A stretch of DNA of 42,459 nt, from assembly GCA_002010075.1 (NCBI GenBank), contig MTMG01000022.1:1-42459 (forward strand). The letters are read 5' to 3'. Under the pieces are notes generated by a model. That model did no database searches. It was not told where the DNA came from and saw only the letters and a list, made by a program, of their open reading frames with translations. Made by a program: the position numbers and the translations under genes. This document shows, one piece after another, positions 4,095 through 35,295 of this stretch; within the stretch, counting starts at the first letter, position 1, and each line of letters starts with the position of its first letter. Origin of the DNA: Methanomicrobia archaeon JdFR-19. Its GTDB lineage: Archaea; Halobacteriota; Methanosarcinia; DSM-18856; Methermicoccaceae.

Positions 4095-5349
4095 GGAGTT
4101 GAGCGACCTCTGAAAGTGTCTTGCCTTCTTCTATTTCAGCCTTCAATCTCTCCTCAAGTTTTGCAACCTCCAAAGCTCTCTTTGCAGCCTCATACGCCTC
4201 TTCCCTCGGTACAAACACGACTCCATTCTCATCACCAAGCACATAGTCTCCTGTCTTCACTGTCTGTCCCTCTATCACTATCTCAACACCAATCTCCCCA
4301 AATCCCTTAGGGTCTCCCGCATTCGAGACAACCTTCCTCGCAAAGACTGGGAAACACAGCTTCTTTATCTCCTCTACATCCCTCACAGCTCCATGAACAA
4401 CCACACCCCCCAGCCCCTTCTTCATAGCACTCAGAGTTGCAAGTTCTCCCCACACAGCCACATCATCCTGCGATGCTATCACAATAACATCTCCCTTCTC
4501 TGCCATATCTATGGCCTCAACAGGCTTTGCCCAGTCTCCCCCGTACGTGGCAACTGTCAAAACTCTTCCTGCCATCTTACACGGAGTTATTGGTCTGACA
4601 TGTATTGCCGGTTTTCTATGGAGAGCATCTGAAAGATTTGGTGTGGTGACCTTGCATAGAATTTCCAAAATTTCATCTTCTTTTCTCTTTTTTATAGTGT
4701 TTTTTCTCCTTATTTTTTTCATAGCCTCTTTTATCTTGAGAGTTGCTTTTCTCGGGTCTTTCGTCCGAGTGATGGCACTTCCCACTATCACAATATCAAC
4801 ACCTGCGCCCACCACTGCTCCAACTTTATCTGCATCAAGCCCACCTGCAACCGCAACCACCACACCTTCTTCCTTCAACCTCTCAATCACATCCAACCCG
4901 ATTTCCTCCCCCCTCATCTGCTGGTCTATTCCAACATGCACATTTATGATGTCAACGCCCATCGAGGCAAGCTCAAGTCCCCTCTCGATTGGATTCTCAA
5001 CCCCAATCAAATCACCCATCAGCTTAACACCATAACGTCTTGCTGAACGGAGTGCGTCTCTTATCGTTGAGTTATCAGCTTCTCCTAACACACACACAAC
5101 ATCAGCTCCAGACTTTGCAGCTATCTCAACCTCAACCGCCCCCGCATCCATTGTCTTCATGTCTGCAACCACAACATGATTCGGGAATTCCCTTCTGAAT
5201 GTCCTAACCGCCTCCATCCCCTCGCTCTTTATAAGGGGTGTGCCAACCTCTATCCAGTCAGCTCCGCCCATCACACTCTCCCTTGCAATCTTGACAGCTC
5301 TCTCAAGTTCTGTGAGGTCAAGGGCAACTTGAAGATAAGTTTCCATCAT
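4069..5349 (-). CDS. Fused 3-hexulose-6-phosphate synthase / RraA-like protein
   Basis: Residues 1 to about 210 are a hexulose-6-phosphate synthase of the orotidine-decarboxylase barrel family, with the DMKTMD catalytic motif. It condenses ribulose 5-phosphate with formaldehyde, or in archaea without an oxidative pentose phosphate pathway runs in reverse to make pentoses. Residues about 225-426 are an RraA / HMG-aldolase-like domain with GDVIV, GGVVVHGAVRD and GDYVLGDENGVV. The fusion is known in methanogens; the role of the RraA half is not settled. The start overlaps the stop of the HD gene by ATGA, so it ends the TFE - HD - HPS/RraA operon. A second ATG directly follows the first. Confidence 0.92.
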   Translation of the reverse strand: MMETYLQVALDLTELERAVKIARESVMGGADWIEVGTPLIKSEGMEAVRTFRREFPNHVVVADMKTMDAGAVEVEIAAKSGADVVCVLGEADNSTIRDALRSARRYGVKLMGDLIGVENPIERGLELASMGVDIINVHVGIDQQMRGEEIGLDVIERLKEEGVVVAVAGGLDADKVGAVVGAGVDIVIVGSAITRTKDPRKATLKIKEAMKKIRRKNTIKKRKEDEILEILCKVTTPNLSDALHRKPAIHVRPITPCKMAGRVLTVATYGGDWAKPVEAIDMAEKGDVIVIASQDDVAVWGELATLSAMKKGLGGVVVHGAVRDVEEIKKLCFPVFARKVVSNAGDPKGFGEIGVEIVIEGQTVKTGDYVLGDENGVVFVPREEAYEAAKRALEVAKLEERLKAEIEEGKTLSEVAQLLRWEKRKE

Positions 5350-5852
5350 CTTTTCCTCCTGAGCTCTTCAATCTCTCTTCCGAGTCTCTCCACCTTCTCT
5401 ACCACATGTCTCGGAACATTTTTCTTCATGTTCTCAAGTGCCTCGTCAAGTGTCACTCTTCTGCAGTCCTCTATTAGGTTGTCTGCATGAGCTACTATTT
5501 TTTCCTCTAAGGTGCGGGGCATATAATCTCCAGGGGGCAATCCAAGTTTCTAAGCTTCTTCGCTGTCAATTCCCCCTCCTATGTGTCTTTCTATGATAAG
5601 GCAAACTTCCTATGGAAAACCAAACCTGCGAGCGACACATGAGCCAACAATACCATGGGCAATCGAGTGGGTATAACCCCTCCCAATATCATGGAGAACT
5701 GCACCAACGCTCACAAGCTCAACATCGACTTGATGGTCTATTTCGTTTGCAATCTCAACAGCCACCTTCTCAACAGCGATACAATGTCTCACAACACCCT
5801 CGGGACAAACTCTTTTGAGAACCTGAAGAGCCTAATTTCTATCGGATTTCAC
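5346..5852 (-). CDS. TIGR00295-type HD-domain protein with three in-frame TAG codons
   Basis: One continuous frame of 168 residues from a GTG overlapping the TFE stop (GTGA) to a TGA overlapping the next start (ATGA). It is interrupted only by TAG at residues 7 (5832-5834), 81 (5610-5612) and 101 (5550-5552). HD-phosphohydrolase landmarks are spread over all pieces: RHC at 22-24, HDIG at 54-57, H66, ERHIGGG with H90, and AHADN with D124. A functional metal site therefore needs readthrough of all the TAGs. No frameshift and no TAA or TGA occurs. Both junctions keep 4-bp overlaps as in an intact operon, so I call it a recoded gene (UAG probably pyrrolysine), not a pseudogene. Substrate unknown. 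Confidence 0.85.
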
Positions 5853-9216: not shown

Positions 9217-9298
9217 GCGGGAGTTGCCGAGTGGAAAAGGCGCAGGGTTTAGGTCCCTGTCCCATAGGGGTTCGCAGGTTCGAATCCTGCCTCCCGCA
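9217..9298 (+). tRNA. tRNA-Leu (anticodon UAG)
   Basis: 82-nt class II tRNA with acceptor GCGGGAG / CTCCCGC, discriminator A, a long variable arm and T-loop TTCGAAT. The anticodon loop TTTAGGT gives UAG at 9250-9252, which reads leucine codons CUA/CUN. CCA is not encoded. It does not read the UAG codon. Confidence 0.95.
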
Positions 9299-14142: not shown

Positions 14143-15474
14143 ATGTCAGATTTGGATGTTATCAACCCATCCAACGAACAGATAATAACAAGGGTTGAAT
14201 GTGCGACAAAGGATGATGTGAAAAGGATAATCGACGAGGCAAGAGAGTTCTTTGATAATTGCAGGTGGACTGCCAAAGAAAGAAGCAAAATACTCCTCAG
14301 CGTTTCGCATCTCGTAAAAAGACATTCTGAAGAACTTGCAACCCTCGAATCTCTGAATACCGGAATGCCCTTAAAAGAAGCAAGAAAGAGGGTAGAAAGC
14401 TGTAGGAAGTTTCTAAACTACTATGCACGACTTTCATTACTTCCCGATGAAGAGGACGATATAAGATACGAGCCGGTTGGAGTAGTTGGGGCAATAGTGC
14501 CATGGAACTTTCCTCTCCTCATGGCTGTGTGGAAAGTAGCACCATCTCTCGCAGCTGGAAATGCAACCGTCTTAAAACCATCCTCTCATACACCACTCAC
14601 ATCTCTGAAGTTGGTGGAGTTGTTCGAAAAAGCAGGATGTCCGAAAGGTGCTTTAAATGTGATTATCGGGGGGGCAACGGTGGGGAGAGAATTATGCTCT
14701 TCTAAGAACGTAGATAGGATATCATTCACAGGCTCAACAGAAACTGCCAAAGAAATTGTAAAACTCTCATCATCGAACCTGAAGAAACTAACGCTGGAGT
14801 GTGGTGGGAAGTGTGCTTAGATAGTGTTGAACGATGCTGACATCGGCAAGGTGATAGAGGGAGTGATGTTTGCATCGTTCTTCAACACGGGACAGGTGTG
14901 TACTGCTGCTTCACGACTTCTCGTCCCTTCGGAGCTCCATGACAGGATTGCAAAGGAGGTTGGGGAGAGAGCATCAAAATTAAGGTTGGGAGATCCATTC
15001 TCAGACCCGGATCTGGGGCCATTGACAACCAGAGACCAGTTGGAAAAGGTTTCATACTATTCGAGTCTGGGAAGGGATGAAGGAGCTAATCTGGAATGTG
15101 GTGGGTATTAGAAAAAGGAAAAAGGATTTTTCTTCCCGCCCACCGTATTCTCAAATGTAGAGCCTGAGATGAGGATTGCGCAAGAGGAGATATTCGGACC
15201 GGTGCTGTGCATCATCCCGTACGAAGGAGTGGACGAGGCTGTTGAAATCGCAAATGGAACACCCTATGGACTTGCTGCAGGTGTATGCTCAACCAACATC
15301 AAAAAAGCGATGGATGTTGCGAGAAGGTTGAGATGTGGGAGGGTTTGGATAAACACATACCACCTATTTCCACCTGAAGCACCATTTGGTGGATATAAGG
15401 AGAGTGGTATAGGAAGGGAACATGGCATAGTCGGATTTAGAGAGTATCAAGAGATAAAGCACATAATGAAGTGA
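14143..15474 (+). CDS. NAD(P)-dependent aldehyde dehydrogenase with two in-frame TAG codons
   Basis: One 443-residue frame ending at TGA, interrupted only by TAG at residues 226 (14818-14820) and 323 (15109-15111). Family landmarks before the first TAG are VPWNFP, KPSSHTPL, FTGSTETAK and LECGGK with the general-base Glu. The catalytic Cys in NTGQVCTA (residue 253) lies between the TAGs. QEEIFGPVL, GLAAGV and PFGGYKESGIGREHG follow the second. The first TAG falls where most homologues have the Asn or Pro of GGKSPN; the second is in the variable loop before the PTVF segment. Termination at the first TAG would remove the nucleophile. I interpret both as sense codons (probably pyrrolysine). Substrate unknown. 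Confidence 0.88.
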
Positions 15475-18795: not shown

Positions 18796-20895
18796 ATGAT
18801 GAAATGCAAACGAACACATATGGAAAATGCTCGGCTCAGAATAACTGGCATGAAATGTGCAATGTGTGCAAAGACAATTGAATCCTCACTCACAAAACTG
18901 GATGGAATTGAGAGGGTGAATGTTAATCTTGCAACTGAATATGCACACATAGTTTACGACCCTTTAAAGATAACACTTGACGATATTGTAAAAGAAATTG
19001 AAAAACTTGGTTATGGTGCTGAAATAGAGAAGAGAGCTGACTCACAAGAAAAAAAGGATATCAAGAAATTATTGGTTGCAATCATAGCTGGTTCAGTATT
19101 GTTTGCAGTGCCTCTCCCTTCCACCATCCAGATTTTGATTGCCACACCCACATTGCTCTATGCGGGCATAGACATATTCAGTTCAGCCTTTCGGACTCGA
19201 ACTCTGAACATGGATGTGATGTACTCGATGGGTGTTGGAAGCGCATACATTGCAAGCGTGTTAAGCACACTGAAATTCTTTCCTCCCGAATACACATTCT
19301 ATGATACATCTGTGATTCTGCTTGCATTTCTCCTCATAGGGAGAACACTTGAAGAAAGAGCAAAGGGAAAGACAGGAGAGGCAATAAAGAAACTCATGGA
19401 GCTTCAGGTAAAGAGTGCAACTCTTCTGAGAGATAATAAAGAGGTCAAGGTCAGGGTAGAGGAGGTGAAGGAGGGGGACATTGTAATCGTGAGACCGGGA
19501 GAGAAGATACCAGTTGATGGACTGGTTGTGGGTGGTGTGAGTTATGTTGAGGAGGCGATGATAACAGGTGAGCCGATGCCAAAGCTGAAAGAGATTGGAG
19601 ATGAGGTGTTCGCTGGTACGATTAACAAGAGTGGTGTGCTGAAGATAAGGGCAAGTGGAGAGGAAACTTTGCTATCTCAAATAATAAAAACGGTTGAGGA
19701 GGCTATTGGAAGCAAGCCCCCAATTCAGAGATTTGCAGACAAAATCGTTTCTTATTTCATTCCAGTGGTTCTGAGTATCGCCCTCATATCCTTCGCATAT
19801 TGGTATACAAAAGGAGATACGATGTTCGCATTCACAACACTCATTGCAGTTCTTGTGGTTGCATGTCCATGTGCGTTTGGACTCGCAACACCAACCGCAT
19901 TGACAGTTGGGATGGGAAAAGGAGCAGAGTATGGCATACTCATCAAGAATGGAGAGGTGCTTGAGATAGCAAGAAACGTGAGAACAGTTGTGTTTGATAA
20001 AACAGGAACGCTCACAAAAGGAGAGATTGAAGTGAGTGAGGTAAGAACTTTGGACGAGTCGTATGACGTTCTAAAACTTGCAATGATTGCAGAGAAGAAC
20101 AGTACGCATCCGATTGCTGAGGCTATAATGAGATATGGTAGTAGTCCAAACAAAGTAGAGGAGCCAGAAATGTTTGAAGAGGTGCCCGGAGAGGGTGTGG
20201 TGGCGGTTTATAAGGGGTCAAAAATTGCGGTTGGAAACAAGAGGTTGATGGAGAGAGTTGGAGTAGACATAGAAGGAGAGAATAATGAAAATGAAATAAT
20301 AGTCGCTCTAAATAACAAAGTCATTGGAGTTATTGAGGTAAAGGATGAGGTAAAGGAAAGTGCAAAAGAAGTGGTAGATGAACTCCACAGAATGGGCAAG
20401 AAAGTTGTGATGATAACTGGGGATAGTAGAAAGAATGCCGAATTGGTTGCAAAGGAACTGAACATAGACGAGTTCTTTGCAGAGGTTCTCCCCCACGAAA
20501 AGGCAGAGATAGTTAGAAAGATGGAGGGGGTTGTTGCATTTGTTGGAGATGGCATAAATGATGCTCCAGCACTTGCTCAGGCAGATGTTGGTATAGCCAT
20601 AGGCACCAAGAAAATAGATATTGCGGTTGAGAGTGGAGACATAGTCCTTGTAAGGGACAATCTGAAAGACGTTGTGAGAGCCATAAAACTCAGTGAGAGA
20701 ACCTACAAAAAGATAAAACAAAACATATTCTGGGCTATTGTGTACAACACGATTCTGATACCAGTGGCTGCCGGAATTCTGTATCCATTTTTTGGAATAA
20801 TTTTCAGACCCGAATGGGCTGGAATGGCGATGGCGATGAGCAGTGTGAGCGTTGTCACAAACTCTCTTCTTCTGAGGTGGTCTGATGTACTGTGA
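18796..20895 (+). CDS. copA: Cu(+)-type P1B ATPase with N-terminal HMA domain
   Basis: A heavy-metal translocating ATPase of 699 residues. The HMA domain (about 12-75) has the metal motif GMKCAMC. The membrane motif CPC (VVACPCAFG) marks the P1B-1 Cu+/Ag+ class. DKTGTLT, THP and GDGINDAPALAQADVGIAIG are the phosphorylation and nucleotide motifs. It exports monovalent copper. The ATG at 18820 (MENARLRITG) is an equally good start; the frame is open to 18796. A small HMA protein follows 156 bp downstream and is the likely chaperone. Confidence 0.95.
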   Translation: MMKCKRTHMENARLRITGMKCAMCAKTIESSLTKLDGIERVNVNLATEYAHIVYDPLKITLDDIVKEIEKLGYGAEIEKRADSQEKKDIKKLLVAIIAGSVLFAVPLPSTIQILIATPTLLYAGIDIFSSAFRTRTLNMDVMYSMGVGSAYIASVLSTLKFFPPEYTFYDTSVILLAFLLIGRTLEERAKGKTGEAIKKLMELQVKSATLLRDNKEVKVRVEEVKEGDIVIVRPGEKIPVDGLVVGGVSYVEEAMITGEPMPKLKEIGDEVFAGTINKSGVLKIRASGEETLLSQIIKTVEEAIGSKPPIQRFADKIVSYFIPVVLSIALISFAYWYTKGDTMFAFTTLIAVLVVACPCAFGLATPTALTVGMGKGAEYGILIKNGEVLEIARNVRTVVFDKTGTLTKGEIEVSEVRTLDESYDVLKLAMIAEKNSTHPIAEAIMRYGSSPNKVEEPEMFEEVPGEGVVAVYKGSKIAVGNKRLMERVGVDIEGENNENEIIVALNNKVIGVIEVKDEVKESAKEVVDELHRMGKKVVMITGDSRKNAELVAKELNIDEFFAEVLPHEKAEIVRKMEGVVAFVGDGINDAPALAQADVGIAIGTKKIDIAVESGDIVLVRDNLKDVVRAIKLSERTYKKIKQNIFWAIVYNTILIPVAAGILYPFFGIIFRPEWAGMAMAMSSVSVVTNSLLLRWSDVL

Positions 20896-21051: not shown

Positions 21052-21246
21052 ATGAAAATAAAGATTAAATTGAGGGGGTTGTGTTGCAATGGATGTTTGA
21101 GTGTTGTGAAAGCGGCACTTAAAGATGCGGGGGCTGTGGTTGAGGATCTGTCTTTTGATGAGGCTGTGGTTGAGTTCGATGGAGATGCTAACAAACTGGT
21201 GGATGTTATAAAGGAAGTGGGATACGAGGCAGAATTGGTCGAATAA
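21052..21246 (+). CDS. Small HMA-domain metallochaperone (CopZ-like)
   Basis: A 64-residue single heavy-metal-associated domain with the metal motif GLCCNGC near residues 9-15 and a typical beta-alpha-beta end (DVIKEVGYEAELVE). I chose the ATG at 21052 because GGGAGGT lies 6-12 nt before it. The frame is open further up to a TTG at 21001. Placement behind copA suggests it delivers Cu+ to that pump; the Met of the usual MxCxxC is replaced by Cys, so metal preference may differ. Confidence 0.85.
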   Translation: MKIKIKLRGLCCNGCLSVVKAALKDAGAVVEDLSFDEAVVEFDGDANKLVDVIKEVGYEAELVE

Positions 21247-21291: not shown

Positions 21292-21870
21292 ATGCAGAGA
21301 AGGGCTAAAGTGAAGAGGGAGACCGCTGAAACGTATGTATCTGTTGAAATCAACATAGATGGGAGTGGAAAGTTCGAAATATCAACAGGAATACCATTTT
21401 TCGACCACATGCTGTCCGCCATGGCAAGACATGCAACATTTGATTTAACCGTTGATGCGAGGGGAGATGTTGATGTTGAGGCACATCACACGATTGAGGA
21501 TGTTGCAATTGTTCTTGGGAATGGAATAGCAGAGGCTCTCAAAGATAGAAAAAACATAGTGAGATATGGATATGCACTGGTCCCGATGGACGATAGCTGT
21601 GCGTAGGTTGCAATCGATGCTGGAATGAGAAGCTACCTCGTATTCGATGTATCATTTACATCCCCATACATTGCTGGTATCGAGACACAAATTTTCGAAC
21701 ACTTCTTCGACACTCTGACAAAAAATGCGAAAATGACCCTCCATATGAAAGGATACGGAAAGAGTAATCACCACATCATTGAATCTCTGTTCAAAGCGGT
21801 TGGACTTGCAATGGCGATGGCTTTCAAACAGGACTCTGAGAAAATAATGAGCACAAAGGGTGCACTTTGA
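21292..21870 (+). CDS. hisB: Imidazoleglycerol-phosphate dehydratase with one in-frame TAG codon
   Basis: HisB dehydrates imidazoleglycerol phosphate in histidine synthesis. The frame of 192 residues (the normal monofunctional length) runs from ATG to TGA with a single TAG at residue 105 (21604-21606). The first metal motif EAHHTIED lies before it and the second, NHHIIESLFKA, after it; both are needed for the Mn sites. The TAG lies just after VPMDDSCA and before VAIDAGMRSYLVFD, a region where homologues are continuous (DDxLxxVAIDxxGRxYxVF). Recoding explains this better than decay. The helicase start lies 1 nt past the stop. Confidence 0.92.
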
Positions 21871-21871
21871 G

Positions 21872-24163
21872 ATGGAAAACCTGACTGGAAACTTCCAAGT
21901 ATATCTGTATGAGACATCTAAGAAGGTATGGGTGTATATCGGGAAGAAGAAAATAAACAAAGGAATACTCTGGTTGGAGGACACACCAAAGGGACCAAGA
22001 ATCAAGAAGTTCATGGTTGAAAATCAACCTGTGAACCCGAAGGAGTTTTTGAAACTCATAAAAAACTCGAGAGTGTGCTTGCTTGAAACTGCAAGGAGTG
22101 TCAGCTCTTCTAAACTTGTGCATATGCTTGCAGACTACCAAATTCCATTTGAGACATTGAAAGTTTGCAGGTTCTGTCTGATGAGACATAAAATAACTCC
22201 GAAGTTATCGATCCGCTATATGGGGGAAGAGATTTGCGAGGAATGTGCGAAGAGGGAGTTGAGGAATTATATCGTATCAGAGTACTCTGTAAGAGTCCTG
22301 AGGAAGTGTAAAGACCTTGACCATGTAATAAACCTAATTGAAGGAAAAATAAACAAAGAATTAAAGCAATTTACACTTTTTGATGTAATTTCACCAAAAA
22401 CAGAGACAATCAGTAGAGAAGAGATTCCTGACAGTGAGATTCCTGACTTCGTAAAGAAAAAACTCCCGAAAACACTTCTGCCTGTCCAGACTCTCGCATT
22501 GAAAGCCGGAGTTCTGAGAGGAGAAAATATATTGGTGGTATCAGAAACTGCAAGCGGAAAAACGCTTGTGGGGGAGATGGCTGGAATGAAGATGGTTTTT
22601 GAGGGGAGGGGAGTATTTCTTTATCTTGTTCCCCTCGTCGCACTTGCTCTCCAGAAGTATGAACAGTTCAAGGAGAGGTGGGGTGATATAGTCGGTCTGG
22701 TGATTGGAAGAACGAGAATAAGAACAAAACATACGGAGTATGACATCGGGATGAAGTCTGATGTGAGCAGAAATGTTGTGGTGGGGACGTACGAGGCTGT
22801 TGACCAGCTCATAATGTCTGGATTCAGATTTCAAAAAGTAGGATGTATTGTTGTAGATGAGATACACATGCTCATGGATGACGAAAGGGGACACAGACTC
22901 GATGGACTTATTGCAAGACTGAGATACCTCTTCCCAGATGCGCAATTCATATACCTCTCTGCAACTGTCGGCTTTCCAGAAGAGCTTGCAAAGATGCTTG
23001 GGGCGAGACTTGTTAAGTACGAACACAGACCGATACCGTTGAAGAGGTATGTTGTTCCATGTGTTGCCCGTAGGAAGAGCAGAATCATAAAGAGAATAGT
23101 GGACGAGGCATGGTCAGAAGTTTCTTCCAAAGGCTACAGAGGTCAGACGATAGTATTCACTAACTCAAGGAGGAGGTGTGAGGAACTTGCAAGGGTGGTT
23201 GGTGGAGTTGCATACCACGCTGGGCTATCAAAGGAGAGGAGGAAAGAGGTCCAGAAGAGGTTTGAAGATGGAAAGATAAAATGTGTTGTTACAACATCTG
23301 CACTCGGTGCCGGGGTTGATTTTCCTGCCTCCTGTGTGATATTTGACTCGCTCAGAATGGGAGCTGAAGAACTGACGCAACATGAGTTTAACCAGATGCT
23401 TGGCAGAGCTGGAAGACCAGACTATCATGATGAGGGGAGTGTATTTCTGCTTGTTTCTCCAGAGGAGGAGGAAATTGCTGATGTGCTTCTGCACGGTGGA
23501 GTTGGAAGATGCGATGTGATGTGTGGTGGAGAGAGTGAGGAAGTGCTTGCAATGTGTTCAATAACAGACGATGTGAGTGAGTTGAAGAAGATGTGTTCGA
23601 TGATGGTGAGGTATGTTGATGTGGATAAATCGCTGAGAGAACTGGAGGGTATGGGAATGCTAAAACGGGAGGGGAACTGTGTAAAACTTACCCGCCTTGG
23701 AAGAACTGCTTCTCTCTCCTTCCTTCCCCCATAGCATGTGCTTTGTCTTATGGAGATGAAAGACGAGGATGTTATTGATATTATCTCGACGCTCCTACCC
23801 TTTGAGAATGTGTATGTGTGTGGCTTTCCCATGCTTTCGGGAGTTCTTGACAGGATTTACAGAGGGGAGAGGGAAGATAAGAAGATCTTGAAGTTTGCGA
23901 AAGAGTTTTTGAGCTGTGGGTGCAAGGAGAGTCCATACTGTGGATGCCCCCCTAAGAAGTTGTCAAAACTCATCGTAGAACTGAGAATGGAAGGACTTGA
24001 CCCTGCTGAAATTGTGAAAGAACTTGAAGAATACGGAATAGAGGCATATCAAGCTGACATATTCGACCACCTTACTCAGTGTGTTATACTATTAGAAGCG
24101 TTTGAGAAGTTGGTCGATAGAGAGGATGTGAAAGAGATAAGACAAACCATAGAAGGTCATTAA
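21872..24163 (+). CDS. DUF5814-type archaeal DEAD/DEAH helicase with one in-frame TAG codon
   Basis: A superfamily 2 helicase of 763 residues in one frame to TAA, with TAG at residue 621 (23732-23734). Zinc-finger-like cysteines lie near 99-125 (CRFC, CEEC). Walker A is TASGKT near 226, DEIH near 329, SAT near 366 and GRAGRP near 512. After the TAG comes a conserved-looking tail with a Cys cluster (SCGCKESPYCGC) and EGLDPAEIV..YGIEAYQADIFDHL, which I know as the normal C-terminus of this archaeal helicase family, not a separate gene. No start with a ribosome site is evident between the parts. The GTG at 21860 is an alternative start. Substrate (DNA or RNA) unknown. Confidence 0.85.
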
Positions 24164-27187: not shown

Positions 27188-27210
27188 GAATGTTTTCATT
27201 AGGGCGGTTT

Positions 27211-28716
27211 ATGAACATGGGAAGGGAAGGTCATTTAGAAGATTTACATAACCCAGAATCAAATGTTCAACAAAATAAAAAGAAAGAACAGCAAAAGGAG
27301 GAGCTTCCACCAAAAAGTGAGTTCTCTGAATGGTACAACGAGATAATAAGAACCGCACAAATAATGGATGTTAGATACCCTGTTAAAGGATTATACGTGT
27401 GGTATCCATTTGGCTTCTCTCTTAGGAATCATGTTTTTTCCATCCTCAAGGAACTTCTGAACAAAGACCATCAAGAAACTCTCTTCCCACTTCTGATACC
27501 AGAGCATGAGTTCATGAAAGAGGCTGAACACATCAAAGGATTTGAGGATGAGGTGTACTGGGTAACACACGGGGGTAGAGATGCGCTGGATGTCAAACTC
27601 GCATTGAGGCCAACAAGTGAGACCGCGATATATCCCATGTTCAAACTGTGGATAAGGTCTCATGCAGATCTTCCCATCAGAATATACCAACTCGTAAATA
27701 CATTCAGATATGAAACAAAGCACACACGACCTCTCATAAGGCTGAGAGAGATAACCTCGTTCAAAGAGGCACACACAGCCCATGAGAGTTGGGAGGATGC
27801 AGAGAGACAGGTTGAGAATGCAATACAGATATACAAAAAATTTTACAGAAGATTGTGTATCCCTGTGATTGTTTCAAAAAGACCTTCTTGGGATAAGTTT
27901 CCGGGGGCAGAATATACTGTCGCCCTCGATGTTCTCATGCCTGATGGAAAAACTCTGCAAGTTGGGACTGTTCACAACCTCGGAACCAACTTTGCAAAAA
28001 CATTTGACATCACATACGAGGATAAAAATGGCGAACAACAGTATGTGAACCAGACTTGCTATGGGATATCCGAGAGATGCATTGCAGCTCTCATATCCAT
28101 ACACGGAGATGATGGAGGGCTTGTCCTCCCCCCTGAAGTTGCACCTGTCCAAGTTGTGGTGGTTCCCATACTCTTCAAACACTCAGAGGATGTTATGGAT
28201 ACTGCCCGAAAACTCAGTGAAAGACTCTCAAAAGAATTCAGGATTGTGCTCGATGACTCTGAGAAGAGACCTGGAGCAAAGTTCTATGAATGGGAACTGA
28301 GAGGAGTTCCAGTCAGACTGGAGCTTGGCCCGAGAGACTTGGAGAAGGGAGAGATTGTGATTGCACCCAGAGTATGGAAAGGGGAGAGGAGGAGGTCTGT
28401 GGATATCAACGCTGTGGAGGAGGAGATAAAAAAGGAATTTGAGAACATAGAAAAAATACTATATGAAAAAGCTCTTTCTTCCCTGAAAAGTGGACTGAAA
28501 CTGTGTTCGACGATTGAGGGGGCAAAGGAGTGGGTGATGAAGGGTATTGCCATTGTTGGATGGTGTGGGGAGGAGGAGTGCGGGCATGTGATAGAGGAAA
28601 AGTGTTCGTGTGATGTGCTTGGAGAACCAATTGGTGATGAGGAGTATGAAATCACAGAGTGCGTTGTTTGTGGAAGAGAGACAGGTCGGTGTGTGTTTCT
28701 GGGAAGACCATACTAA
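27211..28716 (+). CDS. proS: Prolyl-tRNA synthetase (archaeal/eukaryotic type)
   Basis: Class II synthetase of about 501 residues with motif 1/2 regions ([32 protein letters not shown]), motif 3 ([10 protein letters not shown]) and the C-terminal zinc-binding end with CGEEECG and CVVCGRE typical of the archaeal form, ending in Tyr. The family core begins at EFSEWYNEI; the Lys/Glu-rich residues before it are a lineage extension. I chose the ATG at 27211 by TATA spacing; 27190 and 27217 are alternatives. Confidence 0.95.
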
Positions 28717-35128: not shown

Positions 35129-35135
35129 TAAAAAG

Positions 35136-35295
35136 TGGGGCTGGTGTGATTTGAACACACGACCTACGGGTCTCCCCGAATCAGCGCTCCAACGGCTCCT
35201 CATGGGCTGTCCCGTCGAACAGCCTTAGTAGACCCGTTGCTCATCATCTTCTATCCGCTGGAGCCCGTCGCCCTTCCTGGCTAGGCTACAGCCCC
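35136..35295 (-). tRNA. tRNA-Trp (anticodon CCA) with an 86-nt intron
   Basis: Exon 1 is 35258-35295 (38 nt) and exon 2 is 35136-35171 (36 nt), giving a 74-nt mature tRNA. Acceptor GGGGCTG / CAGCCCC, discriminator A, anticodon stem ACGGG / CCCGT, loop CTCCAG plus A38 and T-loop TTCAAAT fit. The intron sits after nucleotide 37, the usual archaeal place. CCA is not encoded. The gene ends 8 bp from the convergent MarC stop. Confidence 0.93.
35172..35257 (-). ncRNA. Box C/D guide RNA inside the tRNA-Trp intron
   Basis: Within the intron, in order: box C ATGATGA, guide ACGGGTCT, a D'-like CTAA, a C'-like ATGAGGA, guide CCGTTGGAGC and box D CTGA. The first guide pairs with the 3' splice region so that the fifth position before D' falls on nucleotide 39. 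The second pairs over 10 positions (one G-U) with the anticodon/5' splice region so that the fifth position before D falls on C34. Positions 34 and 39 are the known 2'-O-methylation sites directed by this intron in haloarchaea. Confidence 0.85.

Follow-up and report, generated by a model that had tools for sequence, protein, structure and literature searches.

The hisB gene of Methanomicrobia archaeon JdFR-19 carries an in-frame TAG, which raises the question of whether this organism reads UAG as sense in an ordinary biosynthetic gene and, if so, as which amino acid. The gene lies in a 42,459-nt stretch of DNA (the window), which is contig 12 of a genome of 1,288,683 bases in 27 contigs that is 89.75% complete. 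An earlier note on this stretch had proposed that histidine synthesis depends on reading through the UAG in hisB. We compared JdFR-19 with a second species of the same genus, whose genome is 59% complete, and with other genomes of the class.

The hisB reading frame and selection past its TAG

Translation of the hisB frame gives 104 codons, a TAG, 87 codons and a terminal TGA. Its features, in window coordinates, are as follows.

21292 to 21870, plus strand: hisB, imidazoleglycerol-phosphate dehydratase, 192 amino acids with UAG counted as one residue, ending in TGA
21484 to 21501, plus strand: first HH motif, HHTIED, codons 65-70, 5′ of the TAG
21604 to 21606, plus strand: in-frame TAG, codon 105, most likely encoding pyrrolysine; the same codon in the second species
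21625 to 21627, plus strand: first ATG past the TAG, codon 112, a disfavoured restart candidate
21769 to 21786, plus strand: second HH motif, HHIIES, codons 160-165, 3′ of the TAG

The HH motifs of HisB bind metal, and the UAG at codon 105 does fall between the two, as the earlier note had it. When UAG is read as a residue, the product matches the Pfam IGPD family (PF00475) over the whole profile, with 190.9 bits (1.5e-56); it also covers the NCBIfam HisB model from one end to the other, with 257.7 bits, above the cut-off. Each half also matches IGPD alone (107 and 70.1 bits), and since the two matches cover profile positions 1-73 and 75-144, the TAG occupies exactly one position of the family. 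Just 5′ of hisB, a 64-codon frame (21052-21243, plus strand) resembles a small heavy-metal-binding protein of the HMA type and comes after a heavy-metal P-type ATPase gene (18796-20895); it had no Pfam match at 1e-5.

Outside the shared TAG, the hisB genes of the two species differ at 24 nucleotides, and the proteins are about 97% identical. Of the 104 codons 5′ of the TAG, 8 had changed synonymously and 4 non-synonymously (dN 0.0166, dS 0.128), and of the 87 codons 3′ of it, 9 synonymously and 2 non-synonymously (dN 0.0097, dS 0.211), giving dN/dS values of about 0.13 before and 0.05 after the TAG, both from small counts. To judge from these substitutions, the stretch past the TAG is kept as protein under purifying selection. 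The six codons from the TAG to the next ATG are identical in the two species, and D109 and R113 are each invariant in 108/108 HisB homologues; conserved, unchanged codons between TAG and ATG argue against a restart of translation. The column that holds the TAG varied among the 108 homologues, with Q in 38, S in 19, T in 11, E and L in 10 each, R in 7, D in 6 and A in 2 (the other 5 being unlisted), and in 28 relatives from the class it held E (8), S (8), T (7) or D (5). Such a site is tolerant, and a bulky pyrrolysine could plausibly sit there without having to take part in catalysis. On its own, the shared TAG would be a weak argument, the two genomes being close; the weight would rest on the selection past the TAG and on the core genes described below.

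A PF00475 search found only one hisB in the 89.75% complete JdFR-19 genome, and the 59% complete genome of the second species likewise has one, with its TAG at the same codon. The additional intact copy that the earlier note had named as counting against its proposal was thus found in neither. The note's view that hisB is single-copy in most archaea holds for JdFR-19 and is too broad for the class, where 29 of 60 genomes (one sister family) have two PF00475 matches; the second match scores lower, at about 82-116 bits, and is a possible paralogue. No stop was present in hisB in any of the 58 other class genomes searched, 27 of which have PylS above the cut-off, showing that possession of pyrrolysine is not enough to place a TAG in hisB.

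In-frame TAG in histidine and core genes

Genes with in-frame TAG in JdFR-19 or its relative extend well past hisB. Those referred to below by position are listed here, in window coordinates except for hisA.

5346 to 5852, minus strand: HD-domain protein (TIGR00295), in-frame TAG at codons 7, 81 and 101
14143 to 15474, plus strand: aldehyde dehydrogenase, in-frame TAG at codons 226 and 323
21860 to 24163, plus strand: DEAD helicase, the next gene after hisB, with a DUF5814 domain 3′ of a TAG at codon 625; TAG also in the second species
27190 to 28716, plus strand: prolyl-tRNA synthetase, in which a GAG corresponds to TAG at codon 209 of the stop-to-stop frame of the orthologue in the second species
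L157, 9932 to 10666 (JdFR-19 contig 9), and L139 (second species): hisA with two in-frame TAGs

Absence of the rest of the histidine pathway would also have spoken against the proposal, and all six other his families that we sought (HisD, HisF, HisA, HisG, HisI and HisH) are present in JdFR-19. Family searches placed no TAG within the matches to HisD, HisF, HisG and HisI in both species or to HisH in JdFR-19. The hisA gene has TAG at codons 49 and 74, the same in both species, and so two histidine enzymes, not one, require that UAG be read. Sense decoding would probably be obligatory for hisB, as judged on an assembly that lacks about 10% of the genome. Histidine may nevertheless be imported, and for that reason hisB is not the strongest case for sense decoding of UAG, nor the cleanest argument that the earlier note had taken it to be.

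Better evidence for obligatory sense decoding comes from FtsY, SRP54 and prolyl-tRNA synthetase, which are core genes of every cell. The FtsY gene of JdFR-19 has a TAG inside its profile match, and no stop was found in the FtsY match in 38 genomes outside the genus; by eye, the position of this TAG (L189) is E in one class relative (L183). In SRP54 (L187 and L188), a TAG in the second species stands opposite CAG in JdFR-19, 5′ of the P-loop.

We also sampled about 128 kb of the JdFR-19 genome, from which a greedy choice on length gave 118 frames, all ending in TGA or TAA by construction. TAG was present in 27 of these frames, with 40 TAGs in total, some of which represent noise or lie 5′ of the true start. 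A family profile spans the TAG in 12 of the 27: hisB, hisA, TIGR00295, aldehyde dehydrogenase, homoserine dehydrogenase, dihydropteroate synthase, MtmB, MtbB, a Na+/H+ antiporter, TruD, a PF01877 protein and a PRK12496-type protein. Profiles also span the TAG in CofH and a TraB-family protein, which lie outside the sample. All 118 frames close on TGA or TAA when TAG is read, and because such selection presupposes the code, their number cannot serve to argue that UAG is never a terminator. In three of them (L157:11733-12647, L159:7583-8839 and L159:10973-12451), a TAG lies 1, 1 and 6 codons, respectively, before TGA or TAA, the pattern that would be expected of a former or present stop. A 616-residue frame on the minus strand of contig 6 (L131:8241-10091), with cohesin, PKD and dockerin matches, contains four in-frame TAGs. 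Taken with the histidine and core genes, hisB is, on this showing, one case among a wide use of UAG as a sense codon in JdFR-19.

Pyrrolysine machinery and the release factor

Both species encode a tRNA-Pyl with a CUA anticodon. In JdFR-19, PylSc is on contig 6 (TIGR02367, 298 bits), PylSn is a separate gene just 5′ of it (TIGR03912, 94.3 bits), and tRNA-Pyl lies 5′ of PylSn; the order of tRNA-Pyl, PylSn frame and PylSc is identical in the second species. PylRS thus appears as two genes directly 3′ of tRNA-Pyl (L131:6888-8226 and L132). The family of JdFR-19 shares its class with a presumed Methanosarcinaceae-like family, and in 27 of these relatives the PylS frames run to 406-534 residues, a length that would accommodate the fused form. 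Split, fused and PylSn-less synthetases are the three classes of PylRS given in excerpts of PMC11363022. PylD is on contig 18 of JdFR-19, a different contig from pylS, and the 12 kb around it, the only stretch covered, yielded neither pylB nor pylC; PylD above the cut-off was not found in the 59% complete genome of the second species. The methyltransferases MtmB and MtbB of JdFR-19 have TAG at 202 and 355, respectively, and it is at their TAG that methyltransferases carry pyrrolysine, as far as the consulted part of PMC8211752 reports.

No CUA-anticodon tRNA other than tRNA-Pyl was detected in the parts scanned, 171,405 bases of JdFR-19 and 76,007 of the second species. A tRNA in the window with the anticodon 'tag' (9217-9298) was considered as a decoder of UAG and rejected, as it is a tRNA-Leu that reads CUA. 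Elsewhere in the window, a tRNA-Trp (35135-35295, minus strand) has an 86-base intron-like insertion and was detected only with introns allowed. An mRNA signal 3′ of the hisB TAG, of the PYLIS type, was likewise rejected, because the predicted folding of the 120 bases from the TAG onward does not surpass that of shuffled sequences (z -0.98, with 37 of 200 as good).

One aRF1 above the cut-off was found in JdFR-19, with its NIKS and YxCxxxF motifs retained, which leaves termination at UAG possible and led us to reject an altered release factor. A second aRF1-like match, on contig 5, scored 57 bits, below the cut-off, and was set aside, since by eye it has neither NIKS nor GGQ; it is presumably a relative such as Pelota.

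Readings of the hisB UAG and related systems

These results support a sense reading of the UAG in hisB, in keeping with the main interpretation of the earlier note, and the residue inserted at codon 105 is very probably pyrrolysine under either complete or partial decoding. In the account that we favor, and that we hold to be likely, tRNA-Pyl with the CUA anticodon, charged by a two-piece PylRS (PylSn plus PylSc), would place pyrrolysine at codon 105 and yield full-length HisB, UAG having passed beyond its role as a stop. A sense codon one base away, such as CAG or GAG, would have drifted to TAG after UAG ceased to be a stop. The pyrrolysine would probably be neutral and not catalytic, because the position accepts a wide range of residues (Q, S, T, E, L, R and D), and histidine synthesis would then rely on pyrrolysine at two steps, those of HisA and HisB. 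We infer from sequence the identity of the residue, the full-length product and the rarity or absence of termination at UAG.

The main rival to full reassignment is competition between aRF1 and Pyl-tRNA at the UAG, from which a 104-residue fragment would arise alongside full-length HisB and histidine would track the supply of pyrrolysine (methylamine metabolism). The apparently normal aRF1 and the three of 118 frames with TAG just before another stop are both compatible with such ambiguity, and release-factor competition is described as the likely mode of pyrrolysine insertion in the consulted portion of PMC9499178. However, TAG in SRP54, FtsY and prolyl-tRNA synthetase, and twice in hisA, would then impose constant losses in core functions, and few TAGs (3/118) are at old-stop positions, a weak point given that the frames were defined as closing on TGA or TAA. 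We consider ambiguous decoding unlikely, if still a serious contender. Insertion of a canonical amino acid by some other suppressor tRNA would suit the frequent Q or E in columns opposite TAG, and the tRNA scan covered only parts of the genomes; yet the sole CUA tRNA found in each genome is tRNA-Pyl, beside PylS, and the partial account in PMC8211752 has methyltransferases carrying pyrrolysine at their TAG, which makes this reading very improbable.

The readings in which UAG is not decoded in hisB at all fare worse. Were the TAG to terminate, codons 1-104 and an ATG-restarted segment of codons 112-192 could assemble as a split HisB, and an ATG does lie 18 bases past the TAG, with both halves listed as open reading frames; against this, the stretch from TAG to ATG is part of the conserved core (D109 in 108/108) and is unchanged between the species, and the same device would have to operate in hisA, FtsY, SRP54 and others. 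We give a split enzyme hardly any weight. We give still less to hisB being a decaying pseudogene in a cell that takes up histidine. A small genome (1.29 Mb) and possible import are compatible with decay, but the gene is otherwise intact and under purifying selection past the TAG, all six other his families sought are present, and two species share the TAG. An error of sequencing or assembly is just as improbable as decay: the assembly is a draft in 27 contigs, but the second species has the same TAG despite 24 other nucleotide differences, and many other genes have in-frame TAG.

If full decoding of UAG as pyrrolysine is extended from hisB to the genus, the change from stop to sense would be finished, with UAG specifying pyrrolysine unambiguously and the cell dependent on pyrrolysine for growth itself, in a lineage with split PylRS; we regard this wider proposal as evenly poised between true and false. 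If it is true, targeting by SRP54 and FtsY, charging of prolyl-tRNA and the HisA and HisB steps need pyrrolysine, which becomes a 21st amino acid that is essential whether or not methylamines are used, and the split PylRS sets the lineage apart from its Methanosarcinaceae-like relatives. The physiological consequence of sense decoding would be that histidine synthesis and, more strongly, protein targeting depend on the 22nd amino acid. Essential genes of two related genomes that pair TAG with CAG or GAG show the codon being captured one gene at a time, and both the course and the cost of reassigning a stop codon thereby become testable. Automatic annotation is liable to split or drop genes that contain UAG.

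Proteome-wide pyrrolysine at TAG has reportedly been published for other archaea, and JdFR-19 would be a further member of that group. Kivenson and colleagues (in Science, 2025) reportedly described an archaeal 'Pyl code' in which all TAG codons are pyrrolysine. What that code would have in common with JdFR-19 is UAG as sense in many ordinary genes together with the pyrrolysine machinery. A search of open-licence literature turned up no report of a pyrrolysine-containing HisB. Compared with the HisB/IGPD family (PF00475; solved structures include 4gqu and 4mu0), the JdFR-19 enzyme is likewise full-length with both HH motifs, and differs in that one position is encoded by UAG. The methyltransferases MtmB, MtbB and MttB use the same codon, tRNA and synthetase as hisB, and JdFR-19 itself has MtmB and MtbB with TAG; pyrrolysine is catalytic in those enzymes, whereas the HisB site is variable.

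Among archaea with pyrrolysine, fewer than 6% of stops are UAG, as cited in the consulted part of PMC9723677, and low use of amber stops is noted for the seventh order of methanogens in an excerpt of PMC3941956; in the part of PMC8629427 consulted, 9 archaeal stop codons have an inferred amino acid. The Sifarchaeia, like JdFR-19, are an uncultured lineage with an archaeal Pyl system, and their pattern of UAG usage is the opposite, since PMC9723677 reports MtbB as the only gene with in-frame UAG and 21% of genes as ending in UAG. Also akin to the present case is the tRNA-His guanylyltransferase Thg1 of Methanosarcinales, in which pyrrolysine was found (Heinemann et al., 2009, as cited in passages of PMC8211752 and PMC9723677). 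There, as in JdFR-19, UAG occurs outside the methyltransferases, and the title of that paper speaks of neutral evolution; Thg1 is a single gene, whereas in JdFR-19 and the second species the codon occurs across many core genes, those for two histidine enzymes and the SRP GTPases among them.
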